From positions 1-64,000 of the forward strand of contig JANQGW010000061.1 of assembly GCA_028282905.1 (NCBI GenBank): a stretch of 64,000 nucleotides of DNA, given 5' to 3'. Below the pieces are notes generated by a model. That model saw nothing but the letters and a program-made list of their open reading frames with translations, had not been told where the DNA came from and ran no database searches. Both the position numbers and the translations under genes were made by a program. Positions 6,873 to 64,000 of the stretch are shown here, piece after piece. Source of the DNA: Sedimentisphaerales bacterium (GTDB lineage: Bacteria > Planctomycetota > Phycisphaerae > Sedimentisphaerales > Anaerohalosphaeraceae). Numbering within the stretch: the stretch's first letter is position 1; every line of letters starts with the position of its first letter.

Positions 6873-9269
6873 ATGCGATACGGCTATTTTGATAACGAAA
6901 ACCGCGAATATGTGATTGACCGCTGCGATGTGCCGGTCTCGTTTACGAATTACCTGGGGCTGGAGCGGATGTGTACGGTCATCAGCCATAACGCCGGCGG
7001 CTATTCGTTCAACGGCTCACCCGAGCACAACCGCATCACCCGGTTTCGCCCGAACGCGGTGCTGCTGGACCGACCAGGCCATTATGTTTATCTGCGCGAC
7101 GATGACACCGGCAAGTACTGGTCCGTATCTTGGCAGCCGGTCGGTGTTGACCTGAAAAAGGCCAAATATACCTGCCGACATGGCCTGTCTTACTCGAAAT
7201 ATGAATGCAAATACAACGGCATTAACGCTGAGAAGACGCTATTTATTCCGCTGGGCGATGATGTCGAGTTGTGGGATGTCAAGATCACCAACACCGGCAA
7301 GAAAAAACGCACGATCAGCCTGTTTTCCTATGTGGAGTTCTCGCTGCACCAGATTGGTCTGGATAATCAGGACTTCCAGATGGGGCTGTATGCCAGTGGT
7401 TCCAGCTATAAAGACGGCATCATTGATTACACGTTTTTCTATCACCCGGATATGCATCACTTCATGACCAGCGATGTCGCACCGGACAGTTTCGATTGTG
7501 TGCGGGACACGTTTATCGGTGATTACCGCAATGAATCCAACCCGGCGGCGGTCGAGGCCGGCCAATGTTCCGGCAGCAGCAAACTCGGTGGTAATCACTG
7601 CGGCTCACTGCACAAGCAGTTTGAAATTGCCCCGGGCCAGACAATTCGCACGATCTTCATGCTCGGCGTCGGCGATGTCAAGCAAGGTCGCAAAATTCGC
7701 CGCAAGTATGCCAAACACGTCGCGGTAGATAAGGCGTTTGATAAGCTCAAGAGTTATTGGGACGAAAGACTGTCACGCTATCAGTGCTGTAGTCCCGACG
7801 AAGATACCAATACCATGCTGAATACCTGGACGCCGTATCAGGCATCGACCTGTACCGTCTGGTCGCGGTTTGCCTCGTTTATCGAAGTAGGCGGCCGGAC
7901 CGGCCTGGGCTATCGGGATACCGCGCAGGATACGATCAGCACGGCCTATCTGCAGCCGGAAAAGAGTAAACAGCGGCTCATCGAGCTGATGCGGGCGCAG
8001 ACGCGGGTCGGCTTCGGTCTGCACCTGTTCGACCCGGCCATGATGGACGATAGCGGTGCAGCCAAGGCGAATCTGCCGACTGTTTTGTTAGCCGGTGAAT
8101 CAGACAGCGGCGTGACCATTCCGAAGCTCAAGGATGTTTGCTCCGACGACGCACTCTGGCTGGTCGCAGCGGTCTGTGAATATGTCAAAGAAACCGGCGA
8201 CGTCGATTTCCTCGACTGCGAAGTACCGTTTGCTGACAAGGGAAGCGCAACAGTTTACAATCATCTGAAAAAAGCTCTCGATTTTTCCGCCAAGCAGGTC
8301 GCCGACAATGGCATCTGCCACGGATTGCGGGCCGACTGGAACGACTGCATCAATCTCAAGGGCGGCCAGTCCTCGATGGTTACATTTATGCACTACTGGG
8401 CATTGAATCTGTTTATCGAAGCCGCGGAATTTCTCGGCCGCAAGGCGGATGTACGAAAATACCAGGCGGCCGCTGAAAAGGTTCAAAAAGCCGCGACCCA
8501 ACACCTCTGGGACGGCAAGTGGTACTTACGCGGCTTTACCGCCGAAGGCCGCAAGATCGGCACCGCCGGCGACAAACAGGGCAAGCTGTTTTTAAACGCC
8601 CAGAGCTGGGCGGTCATGAGCGGTTTAAGCAATGACGACAAAGCCGTCAAGGCGATGGACGCGGTTCACAGTAAATTATTTGACAAATACGGCCTGCATC
8701 TGCTGTGGCCGGCCTATTCCAAGCCGGATGACGGCGTCGGTTTTGTTACGCGGGTTTACAAAGGTGTTAAGGAAAATGCCTCTATCTTTTCGCACCCGAA
8801 CCCGTGGGCAGTCATCGCCGAGTGCATGCTCGGCCGCGGCGACCGGGCATTTGAATACTACATGTCGATGCTGCCGGCGGCACAAAACGACATTATGGAA
8901 ATTCGCCGGGCCGAACCGTATTCATATTGTCAGTTCATCATGGGCAAAGACCACACCGATCACGGCCAGGCACGCCACCCGTGGCTGACGGGATCGGCCG
9001 GCTGGTTCTATACCGCCGCGACCCGGTGGATTCTCGGCATCCGCCCCGGTTTCGATGGACTGGAAGTCGACCCGTGCATTCCGAAAGGCTGGAAAAAATT
9101 CTCAATCGTGCGCAAGTGGCGACAGGCCACATTCAACATCACGATCAAAAACCCGAAAGGCGTTTCCAAAGGCGTCCAGTCTATCACCCTCAACGGCGAA
9201 GCCATCACCGGACAAATCCCAGTCCAACCAGCCGGAAGTGTAAACGAAGTAGAAATCGTCATGGGGTGA
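6873..9269 (+). CDS. chbP: GH94 phosphorylase, N,N'-diacetylchitobiose phosphorylase-like
   Basis: A 798-residue cytoplasmic GH94 enzyme with no signal peptide. It starts at MRYGYFDNENREYVIDR; a TTG 18 bases earlier is less likely because GGGAAAAG fits the ATG. Motifs remembered from Vibrio chitobiose phosphorylase are present: CTVISHNAGGYSF, RPGHYVYLRDDD, SRFASFIEVGGRTGLGYRD and the catalytic-acid block GLRADWNDC (Asp near residue 491). Such enzymes split GlcNAc-beta-1,4-GlcNAc with phosphate to GlcNAc-1-P and GlcNAc. Cellobiose phosphorylase is the alternative, but the wording of the motifs favours the chitobiose group. It converges with the alpha-mannosidase gene across a strong hairpin. 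Confidence 0.88.
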   Translation: MRYGYFDNENREYVIDRCDVPVSFTNYLGLERMCTVISHNAGGYSFNGSPEHNRITRFRPNAVLLDRPGHYVYLRDDDTGKYWSVSWQPVGVDLKKAKYTCRHGLSYSKYECKYNGINAEKTLFIPLGDDVELWDVKITNTGKKKRTISLFSYVEFSLHQIGLDNQDFQMGLYASGSSYKDGIIDYTFFYHPDMHHFMTSDVAPDSFDCVRDTFIGDYRNESNPAAVEAGQCSGSSKLGGNHCGSLHKQFEIAPGQTIRTIFMLGVGDVKQGRKIRRKYAKHVAVDKAFDKLKSYWDERLSRYQCCSPDEDTNTMLNTWTPYQASTCTVWSRFASFIEVGGRTGLGYRDTAQDTISTAYLQPEKSKQRLIELMRAQTRVGFGLHLFDPAMMDDSGAAKANLPTVLLAGESDSGVTIPKLKDVCSDDALWLVAAVCEYVKETGDVDFLDCEVPFADKGSATVYNHLKKALDFSAKQVADNGICHGLRADWNDCINLKGGQSSMVTFMHYWALNLFIEAAEFLGRKADVRKYQAAAEKVQKAATQHLWDGKWYLRGFTAEGRKIGTAGDKQGKLFLNAQSWAVMSGLSNDDKAVKAMDAVHSKLFDKYGLHLLWPAYSKPDDGVGFVTRVYKGVKENASIFSHPNPWAVIAECMLGRGDRAFEYYMSMLPAAQNDIMEIRRAEPYSYCQFIMGKDHTDHGQARHPWLTGSAGWFYTAATRWILGIRPGFDGLEVDPCIPKGWKKFSIVRKWRQATFNITIKNPKGVSKGVQSITLNGEAITGQIPVQPAGSVNEVEIVMG

Positions 9270-16172: not shown

Positions 16173-18395
16173 CTATTCGATATCGTTGTCCTGTGCTTCG
16201 GCGACGGAATCGGTGACGCGGCCGTCGTCGGCTTCATCAAGCGATGAGCTGCGCAGTTTTCGGAACATGTACACGATATCCCGCAGGCCGCCGAGGAAGA
16301 ACCAGATTGTCAGGGCGACGGATATCCCGAAGATCAGCCACATCCATTTGTGCCAGAAGGCCAGCCACGCTTCATCGGAAATCCCTGCTTTTGAGTATAA
16401 CTGGTAGCTGTTGCCGAGCAAAAAGATGGTAAACCAAATCAGCGGCCAGCCCAGCGTAATTGCCGCAACGACTTTGTCCCAGAAGGTGAACTCGCGGGAA
16501 ATGCCGAGTTTTTGAAGCAGTGTGTGGCCTTCTTTGAAGGAAGTCGAATCTTCTCCCTCAATGGCGTATTTGCCGCGATGCAGAAGTTTATCCATGTTGA
16601 TATTGGCTTTGGGGCCAATCAGTGATACTAAGATATAGTTGGCGACACACAGGCCGATGATCCAGAATGAAACTTCCTGGCCGGTCAAATCCAGAATGGT
16701 TTCGAGACTGTTCCAGTAGAATCCGTCCAGTTTGATTGCGGCAAACCGGTTTCCAAGCTCCTGCCAGAAGGCCATTTCCTGCGCCCGGACGAAATAGTCC
16801 GAGTCGGCCTGGGTGATAAAGATACCGAGAAATGACAGCGACATGCCGAGAATCATCGTTGACCAGGCCGCTTGCGTTGAGCCGCGTTTCCAGTAGAGAC
16901 CGCCGATGATAGCCATGCCGACACCACCGGTAAAGATGGAGGCGGTGACCGCGGTAAACATAATAATATGCTGTGACTGCTTAAAGTACAGGCTGAAAAC
17001 AAAAATCCACACGGCTACCAGGAAAATTGACCCTCGCAGTGCCCACATGTGCTGCTTGGGCGTCAACGGCTTTTTCTTAAACGGCAGAATTACATCCTGT
17101 ATCAAAATACTGCCCCATGAGTGCAGATAGGTGTCATGCGTACTGATAAAGGCCCCGAGCATGGCCGCACACAGCAGGCCGAGCAGACCCTTGCCCAGAA
17201 ACGAGCCTAAAAACAGCGGCGTGCGAGCCTGCCGCTGCAGTTCGATCGGTTCGGCGGGAGGCTTTATTAAACCATCCTTTAATATATCTGCGGCTGTCTG
17301 ATCAATGATTTCCTCTACATCAACCTGAATAGAATATTCCTGCAAAATTGACTGATCAATAATTTCCTTCTTATCAACTTGGCTTTTAATTTGATCAATA
17401 ATTGCCTGTACGGCAACTTGGTCCATTTGCTGTTTGATTTCGGTTGACTGAGCTGTATAGTCCGTGTGTGTCATATAGGTTCGTGCACAAAGGGGAATAA
17501 CGATAACGACCAACGGAATAAAGACATACCATCGCCAGCCGCCCAGCATGATCGCCATTTTCGACTCGTGCGGGCTTTTGGCCGAGCTGTTATAGCCTGC
17601 GGTTCCTTGCCAGCCCATGGCATTGTAGAACATGATAATCACTGAAATCACATAGAACCAGACGTTGAAGTTTTCTTCTTTGCCCAGGTCAAAGGGGTTG
17701 ACCATTGATTTGCCGGGTTCGGCGGCCATGAGTGTGTCGGCAATATGCGACCACTCGATTTGCGTCAGCAGGAAAAGAACCACGACCGCAAAGATGACAT
17801 TGGCGAATGTCCCTTGAATGAAGTCGGTGATCATAATGGCGATCTGTCCGCCGAGGAAGGTGAAAAACAGTGATGTTGCCAGCAAGCACAGCATGACCAG
17901 CGGATAGGCGCTGATGCCTAAAAACTCAAATTCCGGCGGAATGCCGCACAGCCAGATGAAAAATCGCGCCCCGATGGCGGGAAAAATGGCAAAATTGATC
18001 ACGCCGGCTAAAAATGAGATCAGACCGGAAAAGACTCGGAAGTTGCGGCTGTAGCGCATTTCAAAGAACTGTGCCAGCGTCAGTGCCCGGGTCTGGCGGA
18101 AGCGGTAGTAGACCCAGCCGGTAATCGCCATGATAATGCCGATGGGAAAGGTGATCATCCCCCACCACTGCGAGGTAAAGCCGACTTCGTAGTTTAACTC
18201 AAAGAACATGACGAGGGTAATGACGCCGAGCTGGGCCATGCCGTTAGCAACCGACAGGAGGTAGCGTCCGCCGCAGCGTTCAGCGGCCAGAAAGGCCGAA
18301 ACACTCTTGGTAAATCGCTGGGTATAAAGGGCACCCAGTGTTAAAATGCCCAAAAAGCAGACAACAATCATCCAGTCTAAGCCGCTCATGTTCAT
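16173..18395 (-). CDS. Sodium:solute symporter (SSS family), sugar type
   Basis: A 740-residue integral membrane protein with about 13-15 hydrophobic segments. Typical SSS features are present: an N-terminal DWMIVVCFLGILTLGALYTQ helix, ALTLAQFFEMRYSRNFR and GAFISTHDTYLHSWGSIL. Length and a charged tail after the last helix match sugar-type bacterial symporters. A hydrophilic loop at about residues 313-385 carries three IIDQ-containing units, unusual for the family. Substrate is unknown; proximity to a secreted alpha-galactosidase suggests galactose or a related sugar. It is the first gene of this minus-strand pair, with AAGGG before the ATG at 18395. Confidence 0.9.
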   Translation of the reverse strand: MNMSGLDWMIVVCFLGILTLGALYTQRFTKSVSAFLAAERCGGRYLLSVANGMAQLGVITLVMFFELNYEVGFTSQWWGMITFPIGIIMAITGWVYYRFRQTRALTLAQFFEMRYSRNFRVFSGLISFLAGVINFAIFPAIGARFFIWLCGIPPEFEFLGISAYPLVMLCLLATSLFFTFLGGQIAIMITDFIQGTFANVIFAVVVLFLLTQIEWSHIADTLMAAEPGKSMVNPFDLGKEENFNVWFYVISVIIMFYNAMGWQGTAGYNSSAKSPHESKMAIMLGGWRWYVFIPLVVIVIPLCARTYMTHTDYTAQSTEIKQQMDQVAVQAIIDQIKSQVDKKEIIDQSILQEYSIQVDVEEIIDQTAADILKDGLIKPPAEPIELQRQARTPLFLGSFLGKGLLGLLCAAMLGAFISTHDTYLHSWGSILIQDVILPFKKKPLTPKQHMWALRGSIFLVAVWIFVFSLYFKQSQHIIMFTAVTASIFTGGVGMAIIGGLYWKRGSTQAAWSTMILGMSLSFLGIFITQADSDYFVRAQEMAFWQELGNRFAAIKLDGFYWNSLETILDLTGQEVSFWIIGLCVANYILVSLIGPKANINMDKLLHRGKYAIEGEDSTSFKEGHTLLQKLGISREFTFWDKVVAAITLGWPLIWFTIFLLGNSYQLYSKAGISDEAWLAFWHKWMWLIFGISVALTIWFFLGGLRDIVYMFRKLRSSSLDEADDGRVTDSVAEAQDNDIE

Positions 18396-52292: not shown

Positions 52293-52366
52293 GGGCGTTT
52301 AGCTCAGTTGGCTAGAGCACTAGCTCGACAAGCTAGGGGTCACTGGTTCAAGTCCAGTAACGCCCA
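52293..52366 (+). tRNA. tRNA-Val (GAC), att site of the island
   Basis: A complete 74-nt cloverleaf: acceptor GGGCGTT/AACGCCC, D stem GCTC/GAGC, anticodon stem CTAGC/GCTAG, T arm ACTGG-TTCAAGT-CCAGT, discriminator A; no encoded CCA. Anticodon GAC (valine). The anticodon loop reads TCGACAA, so position 33 is C instead of the near-universal U. The 3' half is overlapped by the integrase stop-end. Confidence 0.9.
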
Positions 52367-53684
52367 GTGGGTGCAATTCGCGAGAATTCGCACCCATTTC
52401 CATTTCTTTGTAACTGTTTGCAGCTAAAGGCGTTACATTAAGACTATCTTTTTTGCCTTGCGACTGGGTGCGGTCTATTTCTGCTGGTTCGGCTGTAGTG
52501 TGCACCCGATTATGCACCCTTTTTTCAGCGTTATTTAAAACAGATAGTTTTGCTGCCTGCTTCATATCTGCTTCTGTTATTTGTGCATAGTGCTGCATAG
52601 CAACTGTTGGACTATTACCAATCCATGAACAAACCGCTTTGACATTGCCTCCCGTCAGTTTGAATAGTTCCGTTTCCCGTGTACTTCTGCAGTTTTGAAA
52701 TAGCTTTGGCCAAGGTTTTAATCCCGCTCGCTTTATAATCCGGGCCATATTAACTCCCAGATTCGTCCATTTCCCATTATAGCGGTCAAGGCAATAAACT
52801 GTTCCCGGTTTTGCTTGATCGAACACATCCTGAAATAATGTCATTAATTCAGGGAATATAGGGACTATTCTGATTCCAGCATCTGCATGATGTTCAGTCT
52901 TGCTGGCATGTACTGTGAATTGCTTATTTTCAAAGTCAATATCTTCCCACTTAAGTCGCAAAACTTCGCTAGGGCACCTCAGGCCTCCAAAACGTGCCAA
53001 ACCGAAGATCAGTCTCCAATGAGCATCTGGGCATGCATCAAGGACTTTTTGAGCCATCTCTGGCGTTACAAAGAAAAATCGTGATTGATTCGGCTGGACT
53101 GTAACGGGCTGTCCTTTCCCTGTGAAAGGATTGTTGTTAATCAACTGAGCTTCAATCGCAGCGTTGAAGAACTGCCGGCTTATGGCAATATGCTTTCTGA
53201 TAGTATTTTCTGCAAGACCGATTGTTCCACTTAAAAACGTTCTAAAGCTCTTTGCCTCAAATGAATTAATATCGTTTAATAGGGAATCCTTAAAAAATAT
53301 TCCGAGCCTCTTAGAAACATTTTCCATCTTGCGAATTGTGTCAGGCTTTGTCTGCTGATCATTCTTTCGCATTTGAATATAAGCATCACACCATGATTTT
53401 ACGGTATAATCATTTTTTTTGAATTTTGGCTTTATGAGTTTCAATGACTCAAGCCGGTTCCGAAGAGATTCGGGGATTTCAACTAGCCATTCTAAAGTTA
53501 AAGGAGATAATTCGGCGCCTAGTTTATGTCGAATAAGTCTTTGGATGTGCGTTTTAATGTCGGAGGCATCTTTTTTTGTTATTCGTCCCAAGGCGATTTT
53601 CGGACGGTCTGGATGTTCATTCGGGCTAAGCTGGATGTCGTAGCGAATTCCGGTTTTACTTTTTTTTCTTACAATGCTTGCCAT
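52320..53684 (-). CDS. Tyrosine recombinase / integrase
   Basis: A 454-residue site-specific integrase. An N-terminal SAM-like core-binding part, then the catalytic domain: FGGLRCPSEVLRLKWEDIDF with Arg236, ASKTEHH with Lys262, FQNCRSTRETEL with Arg336, WIGNSPTVAMQHYAQIT with Tyr366. The usual His of HxxR and the LGH motif are replaced (N, N), as in planctomycete integrases. The last ~14 residues (GVTGLEPVTPSLSS) are read through the tRNA gene, typical for an integrase flanking its attachment site. Next to the small HTH and excisionase genes. Confidence 0.92.
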   Translation of the reverse strand: MASIVRKKSKTGIRYDIQLSPNEHPDRPKIALGRITKKDASDIKTHIQRLIRHKLGAELSPLTLEWLVEIPESLRNRLESLKLIKPKFKKNDYTVKSWCDAYIQMRKNDQQTKPDTIRKMENVSKRLGIFFKDSLLNDINSFEAKSFRTFLSGTIGLAENTIRKHIAISRQFFNAAIEAQLINNNPFTGKGQPVTVQPNQSRFFFVTPEMAQKVLDACPDAHWRLIFGLARFGGLRCPSEVLRLKWEDIDFENKQFTVHASKTEHHADAGIRIVPIFPELMTLFQDVFDQAKPGTVYCLDRYNGKWTNLGVNMARIIKRAGLKPWPKLFQNCRSTRETELFKLTGGNVKAVCSWIGNSPTVAMQHYAQITEADMKQAAKLSVLNNAEKRVHNRVHTTAEPAEIDRTQSQGKKDSLNVTPLAANSYKEMEMGANSRELHPLGVTGLEPVTPSLSS

Positions 53685-53878
53685 TAGTCTCCCTTTCTTT
53701 TTCTAAGCTCATACCCAAAGTAAACAAGCAACTTTTCGGCCGTTTCACAATAAAGAGATTGATTCTTCTCCATTATTCGGTGCAATTGCCCCTGATCAAT
53801 TCCCACCTCTTTAGAAATATGATATCGGCTAAACTTGCTTTTATTTACTTCTTCTCGGATTGTTTGTAGTATATTCAT
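53684..53878 (-). CDS. Small HTH DNA-binding protein
   Basis: A 64-residue protein: SKFSRYHISKEVGIDQGQLHRIMEKNQSL resembles an XRE-like helix-turn-helix; the short C-terminus ends at the integrase start (one-base overlap TAATG). In planctomycete integrative elements such a gene is commonly coupled upstream of the integrase. Likely controls int or excision. Confidence 0.7.
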   Translation of the reverse strand: MNILQTIREEVNKSKFSRYHISKEVGIDQGQLHRIMEKNQSLYCETAEKLLVYFGYELRKRKGD

Positions 53879-53921: not shown

Positions 53922-54107
53922 CTAAGGGGCTTTAGGGGTCGTAGTTTTTGATTGTACTATGAACTCATCAAGGTCAGATGGATCAAAACGAATTAAACGG
54001 CCTATCCGAACAACTTTGATCTTATCTTCATTTTGTAAATTCCACAATGTTCGTTCGCTAATACAAAGATAATTAGCTGCTTCTTTACTTTTTAGTAGTC
54101 TACTCAT
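53922..54107 (-). CDS. Excisionase-like MerR/AlpA-type DNA-binding protein
   Basis: A 61-residue protein: LLKSKEAANYLCISERTLWNLQ...VVRIGRLIRFDPSDLDEFI is the helix-turn-helix plus wing of the excisionase/AlpA family. AAGGA precedes the ATG. Position between the cargo and integrase modules supports a directionality-factor role. Confidence 0.85.
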   Translation of the reverse strand: MSRLLKSKEAANYLCISERTLWNLQNEDKIKVVRIGRLIRFDPSDLDEFIVQSKTTTPKAP

Positions 54108-54155: not shown

Positions 54156-54497
54156 CTATTTTCTCATTCGCTCATCGAAATCATCTTTTACAAACCAACG
54201 AAAGAATCGTCCTCTTCTCTTTGGATTTTTGAATAACAATCCAAGTAGGATCGCTAGAAGACAAGCTAAACCATAAGCACCATATAAAAACAAGATGGAT
54301 AGCCTCTCCTCACTTTCAACTATCACGTCATTTGTTGACCGTGCCATTCCAAGTAATGCTAATGCTGCAACACAGCCAGCAAGCAACCATGCAGAAGAGC
54401 CGGTTATATTCAAAGCCTCTTCAATGGCATTCTTACTGACAACCATAATGATGATAAAGGCTGCAAGCCCAATTAAAGTACCAAATGATTCAGACAT
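54156..54497 (-). CDS. Small membrane protein, island
   Basis: A 113-residue protein from MSESFGTLIGLAAFI (AAAGGA 8-9 bases upstream); the frame is open further upstream but is not needed. Three hydrophobic segments (residues about 6-22, 34-50 and 70-92) and a basic C-terminus with KNPKRRGRFFRW. First of three tail-end membrane genes after the kinase. No family recognised. Confidence 0.65.
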   Translation of the reverse strand: MSESFGTLIGLAAFIIIMVVSKNAIEEALNITGSSAWLLAGCVAALALLGMARSTNDVIVESEERLSILFLYGAYGLACLLAILLGLLFKNPKRRGRFFRWFVKDDFDERMRK

Positions 54498-54501
54498 GAG
54501 A

Positions 54502-54801
54502 TTATTCCTTTCTGTTGTTAATGTAATTATTGTTATCCTTCCAGAAAGTCCTCTTGGGACTTCCCAAAATAACAATTGCAACCACAAGGATTTCTAATAT
54601 GACAACAGCATAGATGTATTCACTGATCCAGACCTCAACACCTTTAGTATTCAAAAGGTAATACAGCGAAAGAAACATCCCCCCGCTTAAAATCAGCGAA
54701 CTAAATAGGTTGAGTTTCAATTCAAATCGAAGTGAGTTAAATATCAATGTTCCCATTACTGCGTAAAATGCTGCCATTACAAAAGATTCGTTTGTTTCCA
54801 T
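54502..54801 (-). CDS. Small membrane protein, island
   Basis: A 99-residue protein with about three hydrophobic segments (ESFVMAAFYAVMGTLIF, LFSSLILSGGMFLSLYYLL, YAVVILEILVVAIVIL) and a hydrophilic tail. GAAAGGA precedes the ATG. It probably forms a unit with 54156-54497 and 54833-55123. No family recognised. Confidence 0.65.
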   Translation of the reverse strand: METNESFVMAAFYAVMGTLIFNSLRFELKLNLFSSLILSGGMFLSLYYLLNTKGVEVWISEYIYAVVILEILVVAIVILGSPKRTFWKDNNNYINNRKE

Positions 54802-54832: not shown

Positions 54833-55123
54833 TTACCGGGCTATAACGTTAATTAGCACATGGCGCAATATCCACAAAGAGATCAACAAGAAGTTGAACA
54901 ACTCAATATCGCTAAAATTTGCCGAGCAAACCTTCGAGACCAAATTTCGTAAAGCCCTTAAACACTTTCCCAAGACAGGCTCGATTGTTGCGACTGGTTG
55001 CTTTAGCCATCGGCAGTTCCAGCGAGCGTAAATATACTTCGAGAGTGCTATCGCAACTAAGAGGTTTATTAAAACAGTGATTAGATTGACAAGGCTGACT
55101 AATAGATTGTGCAAGAGCGACAT
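54833..55123 (-). CDS. Membrane protein overlapping the kinase 3' end
   Basis: A 96-residue protein starting MSLLHNLLVSLVNLITVLIN, hydrophobic near residues 5-28 and 73-95. The start has AAAGGAG nine bases upstream, as strong as any in this operon. The first 212 bases overlap the last part of the kinase frame out of register. It resembles the other small membrane proteins of the operon in size. Either a real overlapping gene or a chance frame; the strong ribosome site argues for the former. Confidence 0.55.
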   Translation of the reverse strand: MSLLHNLLVSLVNLITVLINLLVAIALSKYIYARWNCRWLKQPVATIEPVLGKCLRALRNLVSKVCSANFSDIELFNFLLISLWILRHVLINVIAR

Positions 55124-56174
55124 GATTCAACTCTCCTTTCGATTGCCAGGGGTCATCAGGCAATAAAATAGTTCGCGGCTTCGGGGTTTGAATTGATACT
55201 TCAGGCAGCATCTCAATAGAAAATTCAGATGCTGCCGAGGGTTTATTTAAAAGCCAGTCATGTGGGGCCGGGCACTGATTAAAAGACCGACTGTTTAATG
55301 CCTGCATAAAGAGTTTTAACATCGCAGGATAATGCTTTTTAAGTTTTTCTTGAGCATAAAAAATAGTTTTTCCGCTGCGGCGATATATTTCTTCTTGTTT
55401 GAATATCCCTCCTTCATGTGAGAATGGCGATGACGAATCAAGGATTAAAAACTCAACACAAAGTACCATTAAAGCAAATCTATCTGCGATGTGACTATGA
55501 GTTAAGGCGGTTTTTTTTGAATCCACAAAAGGTGCAATATATCCTTCGGTTCCGATTGCTGAGATCTTTGGCATCATAAGGTTCGGATGATAAAGACTAT
55601 CAAAATCAATTAATGAAACATTAAAAGTAGAAGGATCAATAAACACATTCCCACCAGACAGATCGCGATGACTAATCTGGTGTTCTTCTAAGAGCTTGAT
55701 AGTTTGCGCAAGACTAATACAAAGCTTTAGCCGGTTCTCTCTTGAAAGAACTCTTCTGCCGTTTCTGATTTGATCAATCACAGACATCCAGTCGAGCCCT
55801 GGGATAAAAGGCATCACAATTCCGCCTTCAAGGTAATTGCCCAAATCCTTTGAGTAATATACTCCCTGATTTTTTCTAAGAGAAGTTGCGGTTAATATCT
55901 CTCGTTCTTTTCCGCAACGCAAAGCTGGATGTGAGGGAAGAATTGTCGCGGTCTTATTTAAATAGGCCGCATTTGGACTTTTGCCCTCGTGGAAAATCTT
56001 TAGAATGACTTTTGATCCATTTTTAGAGCGTGCAAAAAAGACTTCCGCCTGACCTTGCTGGACGGACAGGGGTTTGCCTTTAAGAATAGGGCTTTCTCGA
56101 AGAAACAGTTTGAGGCTCTCAATTTGAGCCGGCTTTTTACTGCTAAACCATTTGTTCATTGCTTCTGATGGCAT
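54912..56174 (-). CDS. Ser/Thr protein kinase-like protein of the vWA/PP2C triad
   Basis: A 420-residue protein. Protein-kinase core: VILKIF with Lys59, EREILTA helix-C region, SHRDLSGGN with His169-Arg170-Asp171 and Asn176, SLIDFDSLYHP where DFD replaces DFG (residues 190-192). After about residue 290 the sequence is unassigned. The last ~70 residues overlap a second frame (54833-55123) and may be the less constrained product. Its start touches the PP2C stop (ATG at 56174), so the kinase and phosphatase are coupled. Predicted to phosphorylate a protein partner in the same operon. Confidence 0.85.
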   Translation of the reverse strand: MPSEAMNKWFSSKKPAQIESLKLFLRESPILKGKPLSVQQGQAEVFFARSKNGSKVILKIFHEGKSPNAAYLNKTATILPSHPALRCGKEREILTATSLRKNQGVYYSKDLGNYLEGGIVMPFIPGLDWMSVIDQIRNGRRVLSRENRLKLCISLAQTIKLLEEHQISHRDLSGGNVFIDPSTFNVSLIDFDSLYHPNLMMPKISAIGTEGYIAPFVDSKKTALTHSHIADRFALMVLCVEFLILDSSSPFSHEGGIFKQEEIYRRSGKTIFYAQEKLKKHYPAMLKLFMQALNSRSFNQCPAPHDWLLNKPSAASEFSIEMLPEVSIQTPKPRTILLPDDPWQSKGELNHVALAQSISQPCQSNHCFNKPLSCDSTLEVYLRSLELPMAKATSRNNRACLGKVFKGFTKFGLEGLLGKF

Positions 56175-57307
56175 CAGGATTTCTCCTTTTCTGATTTCGG
56201 GCTAATCCAGATAAGTGAAATGTCGTCATCTCCACATGTGCGATGTGTTTTTTTGTGAAGTTCTGTCAAAAGATGATCTCGCTTGCTTTGTTTGTATAAA
56301 TTATGCTCGTTGGCCTTTAGCCAATCCCATATTTCTAAGGGATTTAGAAATGCACGGTAAAAACCGTCACTGCAAAGCAAAAAGGAGGTGTCAGATGGGA
56401 AACGATCTTCATAAGTTTCCCATCTCCCTGTGCCATAATGATCAGGCAGTACCGCAGTGGTATTTCCTTGCCCGTCAAAGTGAATATCTGGGGAGTTCGT
56501 TTGTGGGCAAGAAAGTTGGCGAATAAATTGCGAGTACAACAAACGTCCAAATTCTCTGTGATTTGGATCTTTTGGAGTTGAAACCAGATATTTGGGAACC
56601 AACAAAAGCTCATTTGGCTGAAGATAGATCTCCGAGTTGCACTCAGATGATTCTGAGTTATTGCAAAGACAAATGGCCCGGCATAATAACCAGTTACATG
56701 GACTTTTGATATGGGAGTTTTTAGCAATATCCGGATAAATTGAAAGATTTCCCATGGGCCGAATCAATAGTTCGCTTCCCGGGACAAAGTGAATCATCCC
56801 TTTTTGTTGACATTGCCCAAGATGTTCTTCAATTTCAACTAAATTTGAAAACAACAACTGCCCGGAAGGGGAAAATGCGAAAAATCCGGAATCGCCACAT
56901 GTTACACATTTCACGTGAACAGAAGATTCTTCCGGGATAAAACCAGCAGTCACCATCGTTGTTTGAAAACTGTTTTTTAAAGCTTGTTTAGCAGCATCCT
57001 GGACAATTTCTTTCATAGAATCAGGAATGGAGGAATGTATTTTAACGCCTCGTTTTATAGCCAAATGTCGATAGGAATAAAGCATCTCTGAAACAACGTT
57101 GAGATTTTTCTTTGGATCATCAGCAATAATTGAAGCATTTTGTGTGACAAATTCTGCGGCCTTTCCTGAATTCGGAGACGACGTTGTACCATCACATAAT
57201 CCGGCAGTGTTCGTCTGGAAATCAAAAATTGCCCGATCCTGGTTTTTAGTTTCCCCCCCAAACATCGAGGGGGAAACCGTGCAAATAATGTCATGTGTCT
57301 GATTCAT
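56174..57307 (-). CDS. PP2C-family protein phosphatase of the triad
   Basis: A 377-residue PP2C-type protein. Metal/active motifs: TKNQDRAIFDF (Asp24), GLCDGTTSS (Asp39, Gly40), CGDSGFFAF, FLLCSDGFYRAFL and GDDDISLIW, in the family order. Cytosolic, Mg/Mn-dependent Ser/Thr phosphatase. Coupled to the kinase downstream; AAAGG precedes the ATG 7 bases upstream. Likely reverses the kinase. Confidence 0.88.
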   Translation of the reverse strand: MNQTHDIICTVSPSMFGGETKNQDRAIFDFQTNTAGLCDGTTSSPNSGKAAEFVTQNASIIADDPKKNLNVVSEMLYSYRHLAIKRGVKIHSSIPDSMKEIVQDAAKQALKNSFQTTMVTAGFIPEESSVHVKCVTCGDSGFFAFSPSGQLLFSNLVEIEEHLGQCQQKGMIHFVPGSELLIRPMGNLSIYPDIAKNSHIKSPCNWLLCRAICLCNNSESSECNSEIYLQPNELLLVPKYLVSTPKDPNHREFGRLLYSQFIRQLSCPQTNSPDIHFDGQGNTTAVLPDHYGTGRWETYEDRFPSDTSFLLCSDGFYRAFLNPLEIWDWLKANEHNLYKQSKRDHLLTELHKKTHRTCGDDDISLIWISPKSEKEKS

Positions 57308-57312
57308 TAAAG

Positions 57313-58122
57313 TTACCTTTCTGCTCTGTCGCCACGCGAACCAATAGAGCCGACAACCTGGATGACATGTTTTAGCATTTCTTTTGTGCGAACATCAAAG
57401 AACAACCGGCTGCCTTTACGAAGGTTAGGAAAGATACCATCGTCAATGAGATTTTGGTAAATTGCCTCGGGCATTTCAGAAGACATATTGAACAGCCGGA
57501 TGTTATCTTTACTGGGGCCCGCCTCGGCCTCTGATGTATATCCGGTAAAATCCTCAGGGCCTTCATATTTCAGGCTTGTTTGAGTTCCAATAAAGGCATT
57601 CACAATCAGGACATTGCCATCGCTTGTTTGAAGTTGCTTGATTTTCTCAGCAACAGGTCTAGCATCCGTGGCACTTAAGCCGTCGGTCATATGGAAAACC
57701 ATCGGCGGAAAAGAATCCTTAAAACGTTCGTCTTGAACAGCATCCTTTAAAATTTCATAAGATTTTTTAAATGCCGCTTTTGCGTCCGTTCCGCCGAGAC
57801 GAGCGCCAAGGCCAAGAGAGTTGTCTGCCTCTTTGTATTTCTTGATTGTCGTCTCAATGTCCATGACAGGCTCGCCCCAGACTTTCGGTTGACTTCCATA
57901 ATTAACAAAAGAATTGAAATACCGTGGTTTAATACTGGCGGTCTCACCTTGGACAGTCGTACACCGTGTGAGAAGTTCCATTAAGATTAGCCCCCAGTAG
58001 CGAGCAATCCATTTCCACACAGAATCCGTTGTTCCCGGGAAACTGTCCGCCGTTGACCCGCTGTCGTCATTACAGGCGATAATTAATCCCGGATTTTGAG
58101 TTGATACTTTTTTTTCATACAT
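57313..58122 (-). CDS. von Willebrand A domain protein, TerY-like
   Basis: A 269-residue single vWA-domain protein. MIDAS residues are present: NDDSGSTAD (Asp19, Ser21, Ser23), LGGTDAKAA (Thr112) and HMTDGLSA (Asp147). Stand-alone vWA proteins next to PP2C and kinase genes characterise the TerY-P triad. It could be a substrate or scaffold for the kinase. AGGAAAC precedes the ATG; separated from the phosphatase by only 5 bases. Confidence 0.85.
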   Translation of the reverse strand: MYEKKVSTQNPGLIIACNDDSGSTADSFPGTTDSVWKWIARYWGLILMELLTRCTTVQGETASIKPRYFNSFVNYGSQPKVWGEPVMDIETTIKKYKEADNSLGLGARLGGTDAKAAFKKSYEILKDAVQDERFKDSFPPMVFHMTDGLSATDARPVAEKIKQLQTSDGNVLIVNAFIGTQTSLKYEGPEDFTGYTSEAEAGPSKDNIRLFNMSSEMPEAIYQNLIDDGIFPNLRKGSRLFFDVRTKEMLKHVIQVVGSIGSRGDRAER

Positions 58123-58151
58123 GTCATGTTTCCTAAAAATTTGTTAAAACA

Positions 58152-58382
58152 TTATTTGGAAAAGTGCTTTACAAAAAGCACTACGATTAGCACGATTGTT
58201 AAAAATGCGATGGCCGTTTGCATCCCTTGTGGAAAATCATATAATCCGTAAAGGCTGTCACCAAACCATTCAAAAACAGGTTCAAGCCACTGCAGGATAT
58301 TTTTGACATTAAATAAAATCATTATACCGATGATCGCTGATGCAATTTTTCCTAAGCTGATTGTTGGTTTTTCTTCATCCAT
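58152..58382 (-). CDS. Small membrane protein between ATPase and vWA genes
   Basis: A 76-residue protein from MDEEKPTISLGKIAS with AAGGAG in front; hydrophobic segments at about residues 11-30 and 55-73. The ATG overlaps the ATPase stop (TAATG). It may anchor the operon product at the membrane. No family recognised. Confidence 0.7.
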   Translation of the reverse strand: MDEEKPTISLGKIASAIIGIMILFNVKNILQWLEPVFEWFGDSLYGLYDFPQGMQTAIAFLTIVLIVVLFVKHFSK

Positions 58383-60469
58383 TACTTTCTCCTTATCTTG
58401 AACTTCTTGATCCATTTGCTGAAAAATTCGTACTTGAATTTTTTGATTAATTCCGACGGTAGAGTCATACATTTGTTGAAATAAGCTTTGACAGCTTTTG
58501 CTGTAGCTGCGTCACGGCACAGCCAGGTAATTGTCTGGTATGCTGTATCTTGAAGCTTTGCAGCGTTATCCATTAGGTTTGATGTATTGAGAGTGATTTC
58601 CAAGGCGTGCATATTGCCGCTTTTATCCATCGCAACGACATCAATAGTTTGGCCCTTTTTCCCAATTGGAACCTCTGTTTGGACTTTCCAACCGGACTGT
58701 TTGAGATAATATGCGGACATATTTGTGTAAAATGCATGCTCAATGCTTGCAGCACGCTTATAAGGATAAGGAAATCCAAGTTCCTCATAAGATTTCTTTG
58801 TCGGGATTAAATAGATTGCTTTTCCACAAAACGAAGGCTGAAGATAGCCCATTTGTACCAAATTATCTTTATGGCTTTCATAAATCCGAACGGACATATT
58901 TAAACGCTTAGCTCGAATCCCAACAATATCAAACGGATTGACAATGCAATCTTGAAGAATTTGTAATAACGCACCCTTCAAAACTGAAGCATCCGATACA
59001 TTCTTTGGGGCATCTTTCGGAGTAACAGGTGTAGACTCTTTGGGTCTGCCTTGAGAAGGTGTTGTCGAGGTATTTTGAGACAGTTCTGTTAGAGATTGCC
59101 AGGGAGTAATCATATTGGAGCAACTAACATATTGGGGATTTGTGTTTGACATATCTTCAATAAACGGAGTCCATCCATGAACCGGATACGGCCAAACTGA
59201 ATCAGATACAAAGGCTAAAGCTTCACGGGTTTGAAATCGCAAAATAGCATTCTTCTGTTCAGGCGTCAAAGACATGAAATTCTGGACAACTTTGAGATTT
59301 TCTTCTCCGTTGACATTTCCAAAAACGATCATGCTGCGACATAAACTCAAAGCCGAAGGGTCGATTTGAGAGGCGATTTGTGTGGCGAAAATAACACAGA
59401 CACCAGTCGCTCTTAAGACGGCGAGCATGTGCCCCAGTTGAGAGGTTCTTCTGTGGGCGTCATAATTATGTTCGATTCCGATAAACCGACTGGAATCATC
59501 AATGATTAGAATTAACCGAATCTTCTTTGATTCAGGTAAGTTTCTGGCCTGTTGATAAAGCCAAAACAGCAAGTAATTAAATAATGTTTTACACTGAGTT
59601 TCGCTCGTTAAGCTTCGAGCATTAATAACAGTATTCTCGCTAAACAACCATTCAAGTGGTAATCCGGCCCTGCAATCGAAAAGGTTGTTTTTTCCAAGTA
59701 CTGAAGTTAATCCAGCTTTTGCTGAACCGTGATATCCGACTTCTTTGAAGTTTTTAGGCTTCATCGTCAGCAACGCCTCAAAGATATCGCGAAGACAAAG
59801 CACAGCCTTCTTGCCGGTTTGTTTTTCATATTGCTGGAGTATAGACAATGCAATATCAGCAGCATCATTTATATAATTAAGGCCGAAAACTAGTGAAAGA
59901 ATCGAACTTAAGACCGGCATAAATTCAAAAATGAAATTTTGCTGGTTAGAATTAGACGGAGATTTTAAATCAAAAGACAATGTCTCTAAATCAAGGTGTC
60001 GAAATCCAGGTAGACTTCTAAAGCCATTTTTGGGATCGATTATCAGTGTTTTAATTGCGGGGCTAATAGTTGTAATTTGTTTGCAAAGACTTCGGATAAA
60101 GCGACTCTTTCCTGAGCCTTGGGGGCCGATTAATAAGAGGCCGGTCAAAAGTTTATGGAGATTAATTATAAACTTTACACCGTCCATCTGGTCCAGCAGA
60201 TGCAAGTCGCCTTGGCCCAATAATTCCTCAGGGCCATAGGGCCTGAATTCATCAGGCTTTCTCATGCATTCATCTTCATGAGATTCTAAGATGACTTGAA
60301 GACGAGCAATTACTGACTCATAAGCTCTCTGGCTATAAGTTGAATTAGCCGCTTTTAACAATACCTTGACATCAGAGGGAAGATGTTTTATCCATTTTCC
60401 CCGAATCTCTTTTTCAAGAGCTTTGAATTCTTTTGAATATTTTTCGTGTTGCGAGATTGGAATTCTCAT
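58382..60469 (-). CDS. HerA/FtsK-like ATPase with C-terminal nuclease-like domain
   Basis: A 695-residue protein. Walker A LLLIGPQGSGKSR (115-122), then LIIDPKNGFRSLPG; Walker B ILIIDDSS near 325, followed by RTSQLGHMLAVLRATG and IFATQIASQI, as in HerA/VirD4-like DNA-pumping ATPases. The middle 470-560 region contains a likely winged-helix. The C-terminal 110 residues (YYLKQSGWKVQTEVPIGKK, TIDVVAMD, ALEITL) match the archaeal/bacterial PD-(D/E)XK-like domain that follows such ATPases; the last motif is E-I-T, lacking the usual Lys. Predicted DNA translocase with nuclease-like domain. Confidence 0.82.
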   Translation of the reverse strand: MRIPISQHEKYSKEFKALEKEIRGKWIKHLPSDVKVLLKAANSTYSQRAYESVIARLQVILESHEDECMRKPDEFRPYGPEELLGQGDLHLLDQMDGVKFIINLHKLLTGLLLIGPQGSGKSRFIRSLCKQITTISPAIKTLIIDPKNGFRSLPGFRHLDLETLSFDLKSPSNSNQQNFIFEFMPVLSSILSLVFGLNYINDAADIALSILQQYEKQTGKKAVLCLRDIFEALLTMKPKNFKEVGYHGSAKAGLTSVLGKNNLFDCRAGLPLEWLFSENTVINARSLTSETQCKTLFNYLLFWLYQQARNLPESKKIRLILIIDDSSRFIGIEHNYDAHRRTSQLGHMLAVLRATGVCVIFATQIASQIDPSALSLCRSMIVFGNVNGEENLKVVQNFMSLTPEQKNAILRFQTREALAFVSDSVWPYPVHGWTPFIEDMSNTNPQYVSCSNMITPWQSLTELSQNTSTTPSQGRPKESTPVTPKDAPKNVSDASVLKGALLQILQDCIVNPFDIVGIRAKRLNMSVRIYESHKDNLVQMGYLQPSFCGKAIYLIPTKKSYEELGFPYPYKRAASIEHAFYTNMSAYYLKQSGWKVQTEVPIGKKGQTIDVVAMDKSGNMHALEITLNTSNLMDNAAKLQDTAYQTITWLCRDAATAKAVKAYFNKCMTLPSELIKKFKYEFFSKWIKKFKIRRK

Positions 60470-60471
60470 AG

Positions 60472-61077
60472 TTATTCCTGTTTTTGCCTCTTGGTTTCAA
60501 AAAATGGGGACAACAATAAATGAATCATTTTTCGTTTGAAGGCTTGCTTTTTGAGCAGTTTTAAGCAGGTCACGCACGGATTCTGTGTTGAGCCATCAGG
60601 CATTTGAACAGGTCGGCAGTGCCGAGAGCAGGTATTCGTCCCGCAAATATCACATCTTGATGCAGAATTTACATCATATAAGGATTTAATCTGTGCTTCT
60701 TCAAGTGTGATAAGCTTTTTCTCAAAAGCATGAATTGCTTCACCTTGACAAATTGGGCAAATGCCGGCAACATCTTGAATACTACTTACAAGTTTGCCTG
60801 AACCTACAATATGATTTTGATTTTTAGATAAATCCCTTGTCTGCCCGTTATTATCAACACCGATACTCTTCATGCTGCCAAAGTTAATGCTCATTCCTGA
60901 AATTGAATCGACATCGGCTTCTGAATCCGTATATGACAATCCATCATTATTGATATTGTTGGCGAACTGATTTTGATTCACATTTGATTTGTTCACTGGT
61001 GGTGTTGGGTTGTACGGCAAGTGGGCCGGGTGTGAACCTAAATTATAGATTTTCTTGAAGAAGTTTTTAAAACTCAT
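60472..61077 (-). CDS. Cysteine-rich zinc-cluster protein
   Basis: A 201-residue protein. The N-terminal 90 residues are Asn/Ser-rich and probably disordered. Four cysteine pairs follow: CPIC (107-110), CDIC (142-145), C150/C154 and CVTC (168-171), with basic residues at the C-terminus. It lies immediately upstream of the ATPase (stop overlaps its ribosome site), with AGGAGAAAG before its own ATG. A nucleic-acid-binding or adaptor role is likely. Confidence 0.7.
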   Translation of the reverse strand: MSFKNFFKKIYNLGSHPAHLPYNPTPPVNKSNVNQNQFANNINNDGLSYTDSEADVDSISGMSINFGSMKSIGVDNNGQTRDLSKNQNHIVGSGKLVSSIQDVAGICPICQGEAIHAFEKKLITLEEAQIKSLYDVNSASRCDICGTNTCSRHCRPVQMPDGSTQNPCVTCLKLLKKQAFKRKMIHLLLSPFFETKRQKQE

Positions 61078-61100
61078 GGCTTTCTCCTATGTTTCACAAA

Positions 61101-61418
61101 TTACTTATTGTTTTTAGGCGGCTGGAAATCTTTGAGTTTTTCAACGATATCAAAATATTGACTTCTTAGGCTGTCGGCGTAATCATAATATTGCTCAATG
61201 GTTTCCTCGGATGCATCATTTAATGCCACTATCGAGTTGAGCCATATTAAACATTCATATACAGACATGTTGTGTATGTGATGAATCGCCTGGCCGGATA
61301 GTTTCTTTGAACGTTCTTTGTAGTCTTTTCCCAATATCTCATTTAGTTTGACTGAAGTTTTAAGACTTTGATCAAGAATGAAATTATGAGCAATTTGGTT
61401 GAGCTCTGACTGATTCAT
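61101..61418 (-). CDS. Hypothetical alpha-helical protein, island
   Basis: A 105-residue protein, mostly helical (LNQIAHNFILDQSLKTSVKL...SLRSQYFDIVEKLKDF), with no cysteines or membrane segment. AAAGGAT before the ATG. Part of the same minus-strand operon. No family recognised. Confidence 0.6.
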   Translation of the reverse strand: MNQSELNQIAHNFILDQSLKTSVKLNEILGKDYKERSKKLSGQAIHHIHNMSVYECLIWLNSIVALNDASEETIEQYYDYADSLRSQYFDIVEKLKDFQPPKNNK

Positions 61419-61487
61419 AATTGTATCCTTTCAGTTTAAAGTTATTGTTGCTTCTCACTAATGGACGCGATTTACGATTTTTTACGG

Positions 61488-62057
61488 TTATTTACGCTTC
61501 TCATATTCTTGATAATGCTGTTCCATGCTCTTCTTCGCCTTATAAAATGCGCTGCTGACGGTACTGGTTTCTTTGCCAAGGATGATTCCAATCTGTTTGA
61601 AGGTTAGGCCTTCATCAATTCTGAGCATAATGACACGCCATTCTGCTTTTGAAAATCGTTGTATACAATTTTTGTAGAGTATTAAGATGTCATCTGATCT
61701 GACTTTATCTATGTCCTTTAGAAAACTGGCGTCGTATTTATGCAGGAAATCCATGCCTTCTTCGCTGTTTTTAGGATTATTAGCACCAATATGATTGATT
61801 AGATCGCCATAATTCTGTTCTTTGCTGTGGTGGCCCTGGTGCTCTTGAGAGAGCCAGTTTTCAACTTTGTCGCAAGTATCTGTACAGGTGCCATATTTAC
61901 TGCAATTTTGGCATGTGTTTGCTTTTGGATCTGAAAGGGATGCGAGTGTTCGCTCAATTTCAGCAATCCTTTCAAGATCAGCCAGACGCTCTCTTTTCAG
62001 CCGGGCAATGGACTGCAAGGCTTCGTGAAGGGTCTGGTTGTCTTGATTGTTTTTCAT
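61488..62057 (-). CDS. Sigma-region-4-like regulator with cysteine cluster
   Basis: A 189-residue protein. N-terminal coiled-coil (residues 10-40: LKRERLADLERIAEIERTL) is followed by C49-x2-C52-x5-C58-x3-C62, a probable zinc or Fe-S site. The C-terminal 60 residues contain a sigma-70 region-4 HTH: EGLTFKQIGIILGKETSTVSSAFYKAKKSM. It is the first gene of the long minus-strand operon and may regulate it. Phage-type transcription activators have similar tails. Confidence 0.75.
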   Translation of the reverse strand: MKNNQDNQTLHEALQSIARLKRERLADLERIAEIERTLASLSDPKANTCQNCSKYGTCTDTCDKVENWLSQEHQGHHSKEQNYGDLINHIGANNPKNSEEGMDFLHKYDASFLKDIDKVRSDDILILYKNCIQRFSKAEWRVIMLRIDEGLTFKQIGIILGKETSTVSSAFYKAKKSMEQHYQEYEKRK

Positions 62058-62251: not shown

Positions 62252-62653
62252 TTATGAAGCGTTTGATTCGCGATTCTTTCTGTTTTCAAGCCTTTCCCAA
62301 TATTTGTAATGTGAATCTAAGAAACATTTCTCGAATTGTTTTATCTCTTCACCGGTAAGCTTTTCGGTATGCCAGAATTCATCACCATCAAGAGCACTCT
62401 GGTAAGGTGGTTCATAGGAGAAAGTGAGATAGGCCGCTTGCATATGTTGAGGAAGAAAGCCCTTTGAATCAAGGTATTCAAAGTGACCTTCGACAATGGT
62501 ATCTGTAAAGTATTTCATCTCTTTCCACCTTGTAGGATTGTGAACCGAAGGAGCTCTTAGAACCGGACCGTCAGCTATGTATGACCAATTCAACTCATCT
62601 TCTTTTAACTTGAATATTCGATATGAGTTGTCGATTAACTTCTCTGTTACCAT
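62252..62653 (-). CDS. Hypothetical protein, island
   Basis: A 133-residue hydrophilic protein with many aromatic residues (LNWSYIADGPVLRAPS, EPPYQSALDGDEFWH). No membrane segment or motif. Its start is divergent from the plus-strand unit at 62799. No family recognised. Confidence 0.6.
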   Translation of the reverse strand: MVTEKLIDNSYRIFKLKEDELNWSYIADGPVLRAPSVHNPTRWKEMKYFTDTIVEGHFEYLDSKGFLPQHMQAAYLTFSYEPPYQSALDGDEFWHTEKLTGEEIKQFEKCFLDSHYKYWERLENRKNRESNAS

Positions 62654-62759: not shown

Positions 62760-62798
62760 AGATTGTGTTCACAGTGGCTACTACTAGGAGAGTTGAAG

Positions 62799-63689
62799 AT
62801 GACGGATAACAAATATGTTCGTCCTTCCGAGGAGGAACACAGGGCCATAGCAACTTATCTGGAAGATGACTTTTTCCGATATCTTGATTTTCTGGATTCT
62901 AACAAATATGAAAATGATAAAGAAAAAGAGTTTATCAAGAGATTTATACGGGTTGTCACAGGTTCCTTTGGAAAATCGCAGAAAGACATTGCTGAGGCTT
63001 TAAAAAAGGGAGATCATGCGGTCATTTCAAACGCAACGAAACGAGTCAACCAGATTTTGACAGTGTTTTGTGAAGGCAAGACGACTTATCCAATACGTAT
63101 ATTTTTCTATCATATAAATTCTAAAGGGCAGAAAAAGCGACCTCAATGTCATTTGGTCTGTTCAAAACAAAAGACAATCACTACGGTAAATGATTCAGAA
63201 AGGATTTATTCTTACAATATCCTTCCTTTTGAAAAAGCAAAAATCGCTGTTACTGAAGATGTCAAAGATAGTCCACCTGAAATTGTTGTACCTGCCCATG
63301 TTTGTTCCCCAGAGGATGCTCAGCCGAAACAGTTAGATAAGCTTGTTTTATTGTTGGATAATCATCAACTATCAGAAGCGAATAGATTATTACATCAGTT
63401 GGACCCGCTAAATCACAAGGTGATTTTTTATAAGCAGATTGTGGCCTTGAAAAGTAAGCCAATAAGAAAATTCAGTAATCAGGAAATGAATGTGTTATGC
63501 AAGAGCCTTGAAGTTTTGCTCAATACTTCTCTTAAAGATCTTGCTGCTGTTTTGCTAAATTCTATTTTCAAAAAATATCACAAGAGATTTGGGCGAAGGT
63601 TTCTCTTTACTTTGCCAGAAGAGACAGTAATCGACCCAACAGAGTATCCAGTTGAATATGGATTCATACAATCAATAATGAATAACTAA
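62799..63689 (+). CDS. Hypothetical protein with HTH-like segment, island
   Basis: A 296-residue protein from MTDNKYVRPS with AGGAGA 7 bases upstream. Residues about 60-85 (GSFGKSQKDIAEALKKGDHAVISNATKRVNQI) look like a helix-turn-helix that could bind DNA. The C-terminal half (LDNHQLSEANRLLHQLDPLN) is helical and could form a TPR-like array. Transcribed divergently from the rest of the operon. Possible repressor or activator of the island. Confidence 0.6.
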   Translation: MTDNKYVRPSEEEHRAIATYLEDDFFRYLDFLDSNKYENDKEKEFIKRFIRVVTGSFGKSQKDIAEALKKGDHAVISNATKRVNQILTVFCEGKTTYPIRIFFYHINSKGQKKRPQCHLVCSKQKTITTVNDSERIYSYNILPFEKAKIAVTEDVKDSPPEIVVPAHVCSPEDAQPKQLDKLVLLLDNHQLSEANRLLHQLDPLNHKVIFYKQIVALKSKPIRKFSNQEMNVLCKSLEVLLNTSLKDLAAVLLNSIFKKYHKRFGRRFLFTLPEETVIDPTEYPVEYGFIQSIMNN

Positions 63690-63709: not shown

Positions 63710-64000
63710 ATGACTAGGAAATTCAATGATGACAACGATAATCGGAAGTTAAGGATAATACGGTTTTTTTGCAAAAAATTAACCCACAAGGACTTTTCCC
63801 AAGAAGTTGCCGAAGAGCAAAGCAAACTATCAGAAAATTATCATGAAGAAAATCAACGGATTAAGGATTCTTATGATACCGAAAGGTCTGCTGTTGAAGA
63901 TAAGTATTGCGGTTCTTTTGCGAGAATAAAAGTATTCCTGTTTATTTTAATCTTATTGCTCATTGGCTCAATTATAATGATTGCGAATGAAGTGAACTCA
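63710..64000 (+). CDS. N-terminal part of a membrane protein, island
   Basis: ATG at 63710 with GGTGGAG upstream; open to the right edge (97 codons). Product is charged and helical at first (QEVAEEQSKLSENYHEENQ), then hydrophobic (VFLFILILLLIGSIIMIA), so the membrane segment comes at about residues 75-92. It follows the previous gene after 20 bp and is likely cotranscribed. Confidence 0.6.
   Translation, partial: MTRKFNDDNDNRKLRIIRFFCKKLTHKDFSQEVAEEQSKLSENYHEENQRIKDSYDTERSAVEDKYCGSFARIKVFLFILILLLIGSIIMIANEVNS

Follow-up and report, generated by a model that had tools for sequence, protein, structure and literature searches.

A tRNA-integrated planctomycete element in which a HerA-like ATPase core may be controlled by exchangeable regulatory cassettes

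The stretch examined here (the window) comprises 64,000 nucleotides of a Sedimentisphaerales bacterium (GenBank assembly GCA_028282905.1, contig JANQGW010000061.1, positions 1 to 64,000, forward strand) and carries a minus-strand operon whose products include a HerA/FtsK-like ATPase and a triad of a von Willebrand factor A (vWA) protein, a PP2C-type phosphatase and a Ser/Thr kinase. About even odds are given to the proposal that this operon forms the central functional unit of a planctomycete element integrated at a tRNA gene, in which a constant HerA apparatus would be controlled by a regulatory cassette exchanged as a block. Judged by gene order across related loci, the constant part consists of a zinc protein, the ATPase and a small membrane protein (TM), followed beyond a slot by a second small membrane protein (MP), an excisionase and an integrase. 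The slot between TM and MP appears exchangeable, with at least four alternative occupants beside the HerA core, of which the triad is one. A first-pass annotation of the window had described a TerY-P triad with a HerA-like ATPase; the link to the ATPase holds, but the triad was mistaken for the constant part.

Loci in related planctomycete genomes are labelled L019, L056 and so on (L056 lies in genome G446), and L028 denotes the window's own contig from ~60 kb onward. L056 shares with the window the order p62, d62, sigma-like gene, zinc protein, ATPase and TM, followed after the slot by MP, excisionase and integrase, with 42-58% identity from p62 through TM (zinc protein 53%, ATPase 58%); the two differ by one small gene between the sigma-like and zinc protein genes and by two extra small membrane proteins in the window. 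Between TM and MP, the vWA-PP2C-kinase genes are replaced in L056 by those for a small ubiquitin-like (Ubl) protein, an E2 and a JAB-E1 fusion, a Bub-type pattern that is repeated in L019 and L062 and occurs in a more distant form in L021, L022, L059 and L060. The E1 matches ThiF (7.6e-29) and, across both its JAB and E1 parts, Citrobacter BubCD (4.3e-10), and the E2 matches Prok-E2_E (1.5e-6), its best match in a sequence search of the PDB being BubB at an E value of only 0.31. The Ubl protein was called by position and by likeness among three loci, not by profile or model. At the Ubl position of L059 (9960-10160) lies a gene for a 66-aa protein, with a similar one in L060 near 7.2-7.5 kb; these have no recognisable likeness to Ubl and the label was not adopted for them. 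No Ubl, E2 or JAB-E1 is present among the open reading frames (ORFs) of the window operon, so that the resemblance to the Bub pathway is confined to the slot of the related elements, where the set is found inside a HerA element.

The same slot encodes GrpE, DnaK, a vWA protein and a J-domain protein in L057, L058 and L061 (HSP70 1.8e-85, GrpE 7.3e-7, VWA 7.1e-19), and a GrpE-like protein, DnaK and vWA in L078 and L079. The L068 slot encodes PP2C, an FHA protein, a kinase bearing both zinc ribbon and FHA, and a vWA protein with a zinc ribbon. As in the window, the ATPase gene lies directly upstream of vWA-PP2C(-kinase) genes in L091, L092 and L093, the last of which has the full order zinc protein-ATPase-membrane protein-vWA-PP2C-kinase, and in L084 the triad stands behind a chaperone module, both following one ATPase gene pair. 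The ATPase therefore precedes vWA-PP2C(-kinase) in four other genomes, which together with the profile matches given below supports both the identity of the three proteins and the conservation of the arrangement. A ThiF/E1-like gene (6.8e-10) was detected just upstream of the ATPase and vWA-PP2C genes of L092 (3005-6831), and this single locus may combine components of ubiquitin-like and phosphorylation systems.

The core and the cassette of the window have different nearest relatives. In the ATPase tree, the window groups with L056 and L019, both of the Bub type, in a clade supported at 100/100, whereas the nearest relative of its triad is L091 (vWA 69%, PP2C 49%, kinase 49-50% identity), the ATPase of which is barely similar to that of the window (E 0.043). 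Core and cassette therefore have separate histories, and the window element is a chimera produced by block replacement of its control genes. MP of the window is closer to MP of L062, L056, L058 and L059 (25-33%) than to that of the triad loci L084 and L085 (15-18%). The kinase ORF overruns, out of frame, by 212 nt into the MP gene; the L091 kinase ends at LPDNPWNN, where MP begins, and the window kinase matches it up to LPDDPWQS, directly after which the MP ribosome-binding site and ATG are found, the remainder being out-of-frame readthrough. Such readthrough agrees with a junction at the cassette's end, although the stop codon alone may have been lost. True relatives of the ATPase occur in only a few genomes, within the order as within the phylum. 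Genome contigs queried with the ATPase alignment yielded only two already known loci of one planctomycete, no ATPase relatives were found in viral contigs, and a plasmid collection held no match to the ATPase; queried with the vWA protein, the plasmids gave two vWA genes of cyanobacteria, both distant (24-28%), and one of them is followed by PP2C.

The features of the element within the window are as follows.

52293..52366, plus strand: tRNA-Val (GAC), the integration site of the element (ARAGORN)
52320..53684, minus strand: tyrosine integrase, C-terminus overlapping the tRNA (PF13102 2.2e-11, PF00589 5.9e-8)
53684..53878, minus strand: small Cro-like helix-turn-helix (HTH) protein (ORF; fold judged by eye only)
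53922..54107, minus strand: excisionase-like HTH_17 protein (PF12728 2.3e-10), a similar protein adjoining the integrase in related loci
54156..54587, minus strand: small membrane protein mp1 (ORF), with a homologue behind the kinase in L091
54502..54801, minus strand: small membrane protein mp2 (ORF), no homologue found
54833..55123, minus strand: conserved small membrane protein MP, distal border of the slot (homologues in L056, L058, L059, L060, L062 and others, E down to 5.6e-17)
54912..56174, minus strand: Ser/Thr kinase (PF00069 7.6e-10), natural C-terminus probably near 55130
56174..57307, minus strand: PP2C-type phosphatase (PP2C_2 4.2e-5, PADLOC PP2C 0.0041; 49% to L091), metal-binding Asp conserved
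57313..58122, minus strand: TerY-like vWA protein with metal ion-dependent adhesion site (MIDAS; PADLOC TerY 2.9e-18; 69% to L091, 55% to L084)
58152..58382, minus strand: small membrane protein TM, proximal border of the slot, aligned across nine loci with differing module types
58382..60469, minus strand: HerA/FtsK-like ATPase with C-terminal PD-(D/E)XK-like domain (PF01935 1.2e-4; model fold HerA/VirB4/DndH)
60472..61077, minus strand: zinc protein, putative FYVE-like cross-brace finger (alignment, model, fold matches)
61101..61418, minus strand: small helical protein (ORF), not conserved, without homologue in related loci
61488..62057, minus strand: sigma-region-4-like HTH protein with Cys cluster (PF04545 2.9e-5; 48% to L056:12880-13473)
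62252..62653, minus strand: small conserved protein d62 (47% to L056:13646-14038), present in L058 too
62763..63689, plus strand: divergent gene p62 (48% to L056:14188-15075; E 4e-13 to L019:13503-16751)
63710..64000, plus strand: start of a 435-aa membrane/coiled-coil protein that runs past the window (L028:3711-5018; 51% to L056:15099-16397)

The operon proper consists of eight genes, from 61488-62057 down to 54912-56174, and all eight ORFs were found at the place and on the strand first claimed. The spacings are operon-like: 69 bp between the sigma-like and helical genes, 23 bp between the helical and zinc protein genes, 2 bp between the zinc protein and ATPase genes, a TAATG overlap between ATPase and TM, 29 bp between TM and vWA, 5 bp between vWA and PP2C, and a TGATG overlap between PP2C and kinase. 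The original boundaries, 54912-62057, do enclose the operon, but the conserved unit is larger, extending from about 52.3 kb to past 64 kb, and two gene ends within it needed correction, that of the kinase as described above and the start of TM, which is probably at 58382 rather than 58472. The prediction of a sigma-region-4-like protein was borne out by its sigma-70 region 4 match; in profile searches of the operon ORFs, the zinc, helical and membrane proteins had no match.

The three cassette proteins retain the residues expected of their families. In addition to PF00069, the kinase matches PADLOC STK_OB (1.7e-9), and its Lys/HRD/DFD residues are present; the PP2C_2 match of the phosphatase is slightly under the gathering score, its acidic residues are in place, and the motifs NQDR, CDG, CSDG and GDDD are kept in full-length relatives. 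The vWA protein, for which a sequence search of the PDB gave no match, has a complete MIDAS (DxSxS/T/D), with DDSGS, T112 and D147 invariant among relatives. In L084, PP2C is truncated and the kinase lacks its N-lobe. TerY-P triads occur near restriction and DNA-processing systems (PMC11090510), and the window shares with them the same three proteins in the same order, the TerY profile match and the active-site residues. The designation as a TerY-P-like triad is supported, but no zinc ribbon or OB-fold tail was found on the window kinase, where profile matches cover the kinase domain only; among relatives, the kinase of L084 has a zinc-ribbon tail (Zn_ribbon_4 1.6e-8) and that of L093 a Cys-rich tail. 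The window set differs further in its weak PADLOC PP2C match and in being embedded in a HerA core in which it appears replaceable.

OB-fold versions similar to TerY-P are described as stand-alone antiphage systems in PMC11090510 (citing Gao 2020), and the cassette might likewise be a TerY-P defence system complete in itself, with an unrelated HerA system simply present on the same island. L085, which carries the triad and MP on a short contig without the ATPase, is consistent with this explanation and weighs against a cassette that controls the HerA core. This explanation nevertheless seems distinctly unlikely, given that vWA-PP2C directly follows the ATPase in the window as well as in L091, L092 and L093 (a chaperone block intervenes in L084), that the genes are a few bases apart, and that other modules occupy the same slot. 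Control of a constant core by exchangeable cassettes faces further difficulties besides L085. The chaperone and kinase modules are in tandem in L084 and may therefore act in series, not as equivalents; for the exact slot match there is a single close pair, the window and L056, the other loci being distant and drawn mostly from draft genomes; and the nuclease-like tail of the ATPase is without the canonical Lys, having Thr/Glu or another residue there throughout.

The ATPase itself belongs to the HerA/FtsK superfamily, with a RecA-type translocase fold and Walker A and B motifs. Its assignment by the HerA/DUF87 profile is confirmed by a Foldseek match to HerA (4.1e-11), and its predicted structure (pLDDT 79) strongly matches the HerA, VirB4 and DndH-C folds across residues 73-447. 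Fold alignment with VIA-align gave Z scores of 24.5-27.9, namely 27.9 for DndH-C (rmsd 4.2 over 330) and 24.5 for HerA 4d2i (rmsd 3.9 over 320), and the Walker-type motifs GPQGSGKS and LIIDD are conserved. For the C-terminal nuclease-like domain proposed at the outset the signs are mixed: the secondary structure fits PD-(D/E)XK, and E577, D610 and E624 are largely conserved, but Thr/Glu stands at the position expected of the catalytic Lys, and K638 could be a migrated Lys. The ATPase gene is broken up into two or three ORFs, which overlap or adjoin one another, in L058 (8277-10453), L059 (10534-12696), L060 (7775-9920), L084 (3274-5540) and L093 (7403-9446); several of the splits fall between the ATPase and nuclease-like parts and that of L084 inside the ATPase domain, and they may be real or due to sequencing error. 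A second, distinct HerA/DUF87 ATPase family was observed near the core at L020:3690-5768, where it adjoins a DNA methyltransferase-like gene, L021:5080-6771, L022:15691-16716 and L060:19431-19997. The HerA2-type ATPases of many genomes of the order form a separate family and were excluded from the comparison.

Upstream of the ATPase, the zinc protein contains four C/H pairs, of which pairs 1 and 3 are invariant and pairs 2 and 4 are jointly missing in L057 and L058, the pattern of loss expected of a cross-brace. The best fold match of its model is FYVE 1vfy, at a low Z of 4.0 (rmsd 2.6 over 58), and FYVE or FYVE-like folds make up most rows among the fold matches listed, so that the protein looks like a FYVE-like finger. 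In L019 and L058, the N-terminal domain of p62 occurs as a fusion with NACHT/STAND NTPases (NACHT 1.6e-10), which suggests a sensor beside the core.

In the proposed mechanism, the constant apparatus would be made up of the FYVE-like zinc protein, a HerA-type hexameric DNA translocase with a nuclease-like tail and a small membrane anchor, often accompanied by a divergent HTH or NACHT sensor. In the window, the kinase and PP2C would determine whether the vWA adaptor or a core protein is phosphorylated, which would in turn license or restrain the ATPase/nuclease; in relatives, E1-E2 conjugation versus JAB deconjugation, or an Hsp70-GrpE-DnaJ-vWA cycle, would do the same job. Every cassette type can be regarded as an ATP-driven cycle with opposing or resetting activities (kinase/PP2C, E1-E2/JAB, DnaK-DnaJ/GrpE), and since the cassettes are alternatives on the same constant core, that core would be their shared target. 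The chances are about equal either way that three reversible switches of unrelated chemistry (phosphorylation, ubiquitin-like conjugation and Hsp70 cycling) operate a single mobile HerA platform as functionally interchangeable cassettes in one slot. The targets of kinase/PP2C/vWA triads and of bacterial ubiquitin-like pathways, both found near defence genes, are often unclear; were the proposal correct, a phosphorylation switch could stand in for a ubiquitin-like switch on one effector, and Bub pathways would be tied to a concrete effector.

The effector would most likely attack or clear invading DNA, a role favoured by the antiphage precedents for HerA, the NACHT neighbours and the mobile context. 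The HerA-SIR2 (Nezha) and HerA-DUF4297 antiphage complexes likewise employ a HerA-fold translocase; here there is no SIR2 or DUF4297 partner, the nuclease-like domain is fused to the ATPase and a regulatory cassette is added. HerA-NurA acts in end resection, and the vWA-kinase-phosphatase switch might instead sense metal or DNA damage and drive a repair-type HerA ATPase. Although a metal-sensing role as a phosphorylation switch has been hypothesised for TerY-P (PMC11090510), stress signalling of this kind is very unlikely, as carriage on a rare mobile element, the swapping of modules and the NACHT neighbours suggest conflict rather than housekeeping repair. Returning to exchangeable control of a HerA core, a parallel exists in systems centred on GAP1-N2 GTPases, where HSP70/GrpE/DnaJ and kinase/PP2C/vWA themes occur as alternatives (Kaur et al., 2020; PMC7159879). 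The present elements differ from these systems in having a HerA ATPase and a FYVE-like protein as core in place of a GTPase, a ubiquitin-like third option and a fixed slot. Likeness to MADS is weak (kinase to mad6 3.4e-9, ATPase to mad8 3.3e-9), and a profile search of the window operon gave no methyltransferase or other MADS part. No published HerA element with a slot common to Bub, triad and Hsp70 modules was found in a literature search that left out key subscription papers, so that an earlier mention is possible.

The operon sits, as had been proposed, on an island: an AT-rich integrative element at tRNA-Val, with an integrase abutting the tRNA, an excisionase-like gene and a fall in GC content from ~0.51 in the host part to 0.36-0.42 in the element. 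One tRNA was found at the integrase end in all 15 of the 15 related loci scanned. The far (right) attachment site was not found within the 71.3 kb of the contig, and the far end of the element lies off the contig. This constant linkage to integrase, excisionase and tRNA, the nearness of the ATPase fold to VirB4 and TrwB as well, the two small membrane proteins and the sigma-like regulator would also be expected if the ATPase, membrane and zinc proteins were the element's own DNA-transfer or maintenance machinery, comparable to FtsK/TraB or coupling-protein ATPases, with the cassettes tuning transfer or excision. This is the foremost alternative and is rated unlikely, though less so than the others: the genes searched included no recognisable relaxase or replication gene, a membrane segment is missing from the ATPase itself, the PD-(D/E)XK-like tail and the NACHT neighbours would be more usual in a defence system, and structures have been solved for antiphage complexes of HerA with SIR2 or DUF4297.

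Just beyond the window, L028:5127-6212 (contig 65126-66211) encodes a membrane protein with a weak match to nucleoside 2-deoxyribosyltransferase (0.0036) and a strong match to phage families of unknown function (phrog_3634, 1.7e-18), which is possibly another defence gene on the same element. Further along, a uracil-DNA-glycosylase superfamily gene (2.8e-9) at L028:10679-11314 (contig 70678-71313) is cut by the contig end. Look-alike small accessory genes can be detected in the far parts of elements with differing modules, at L028:7623-8246 and 8463-8762, L058:2129-2806 and 1389-1688, and L060:15669-16289 and 17732-18031, suggesting a common element backbone.

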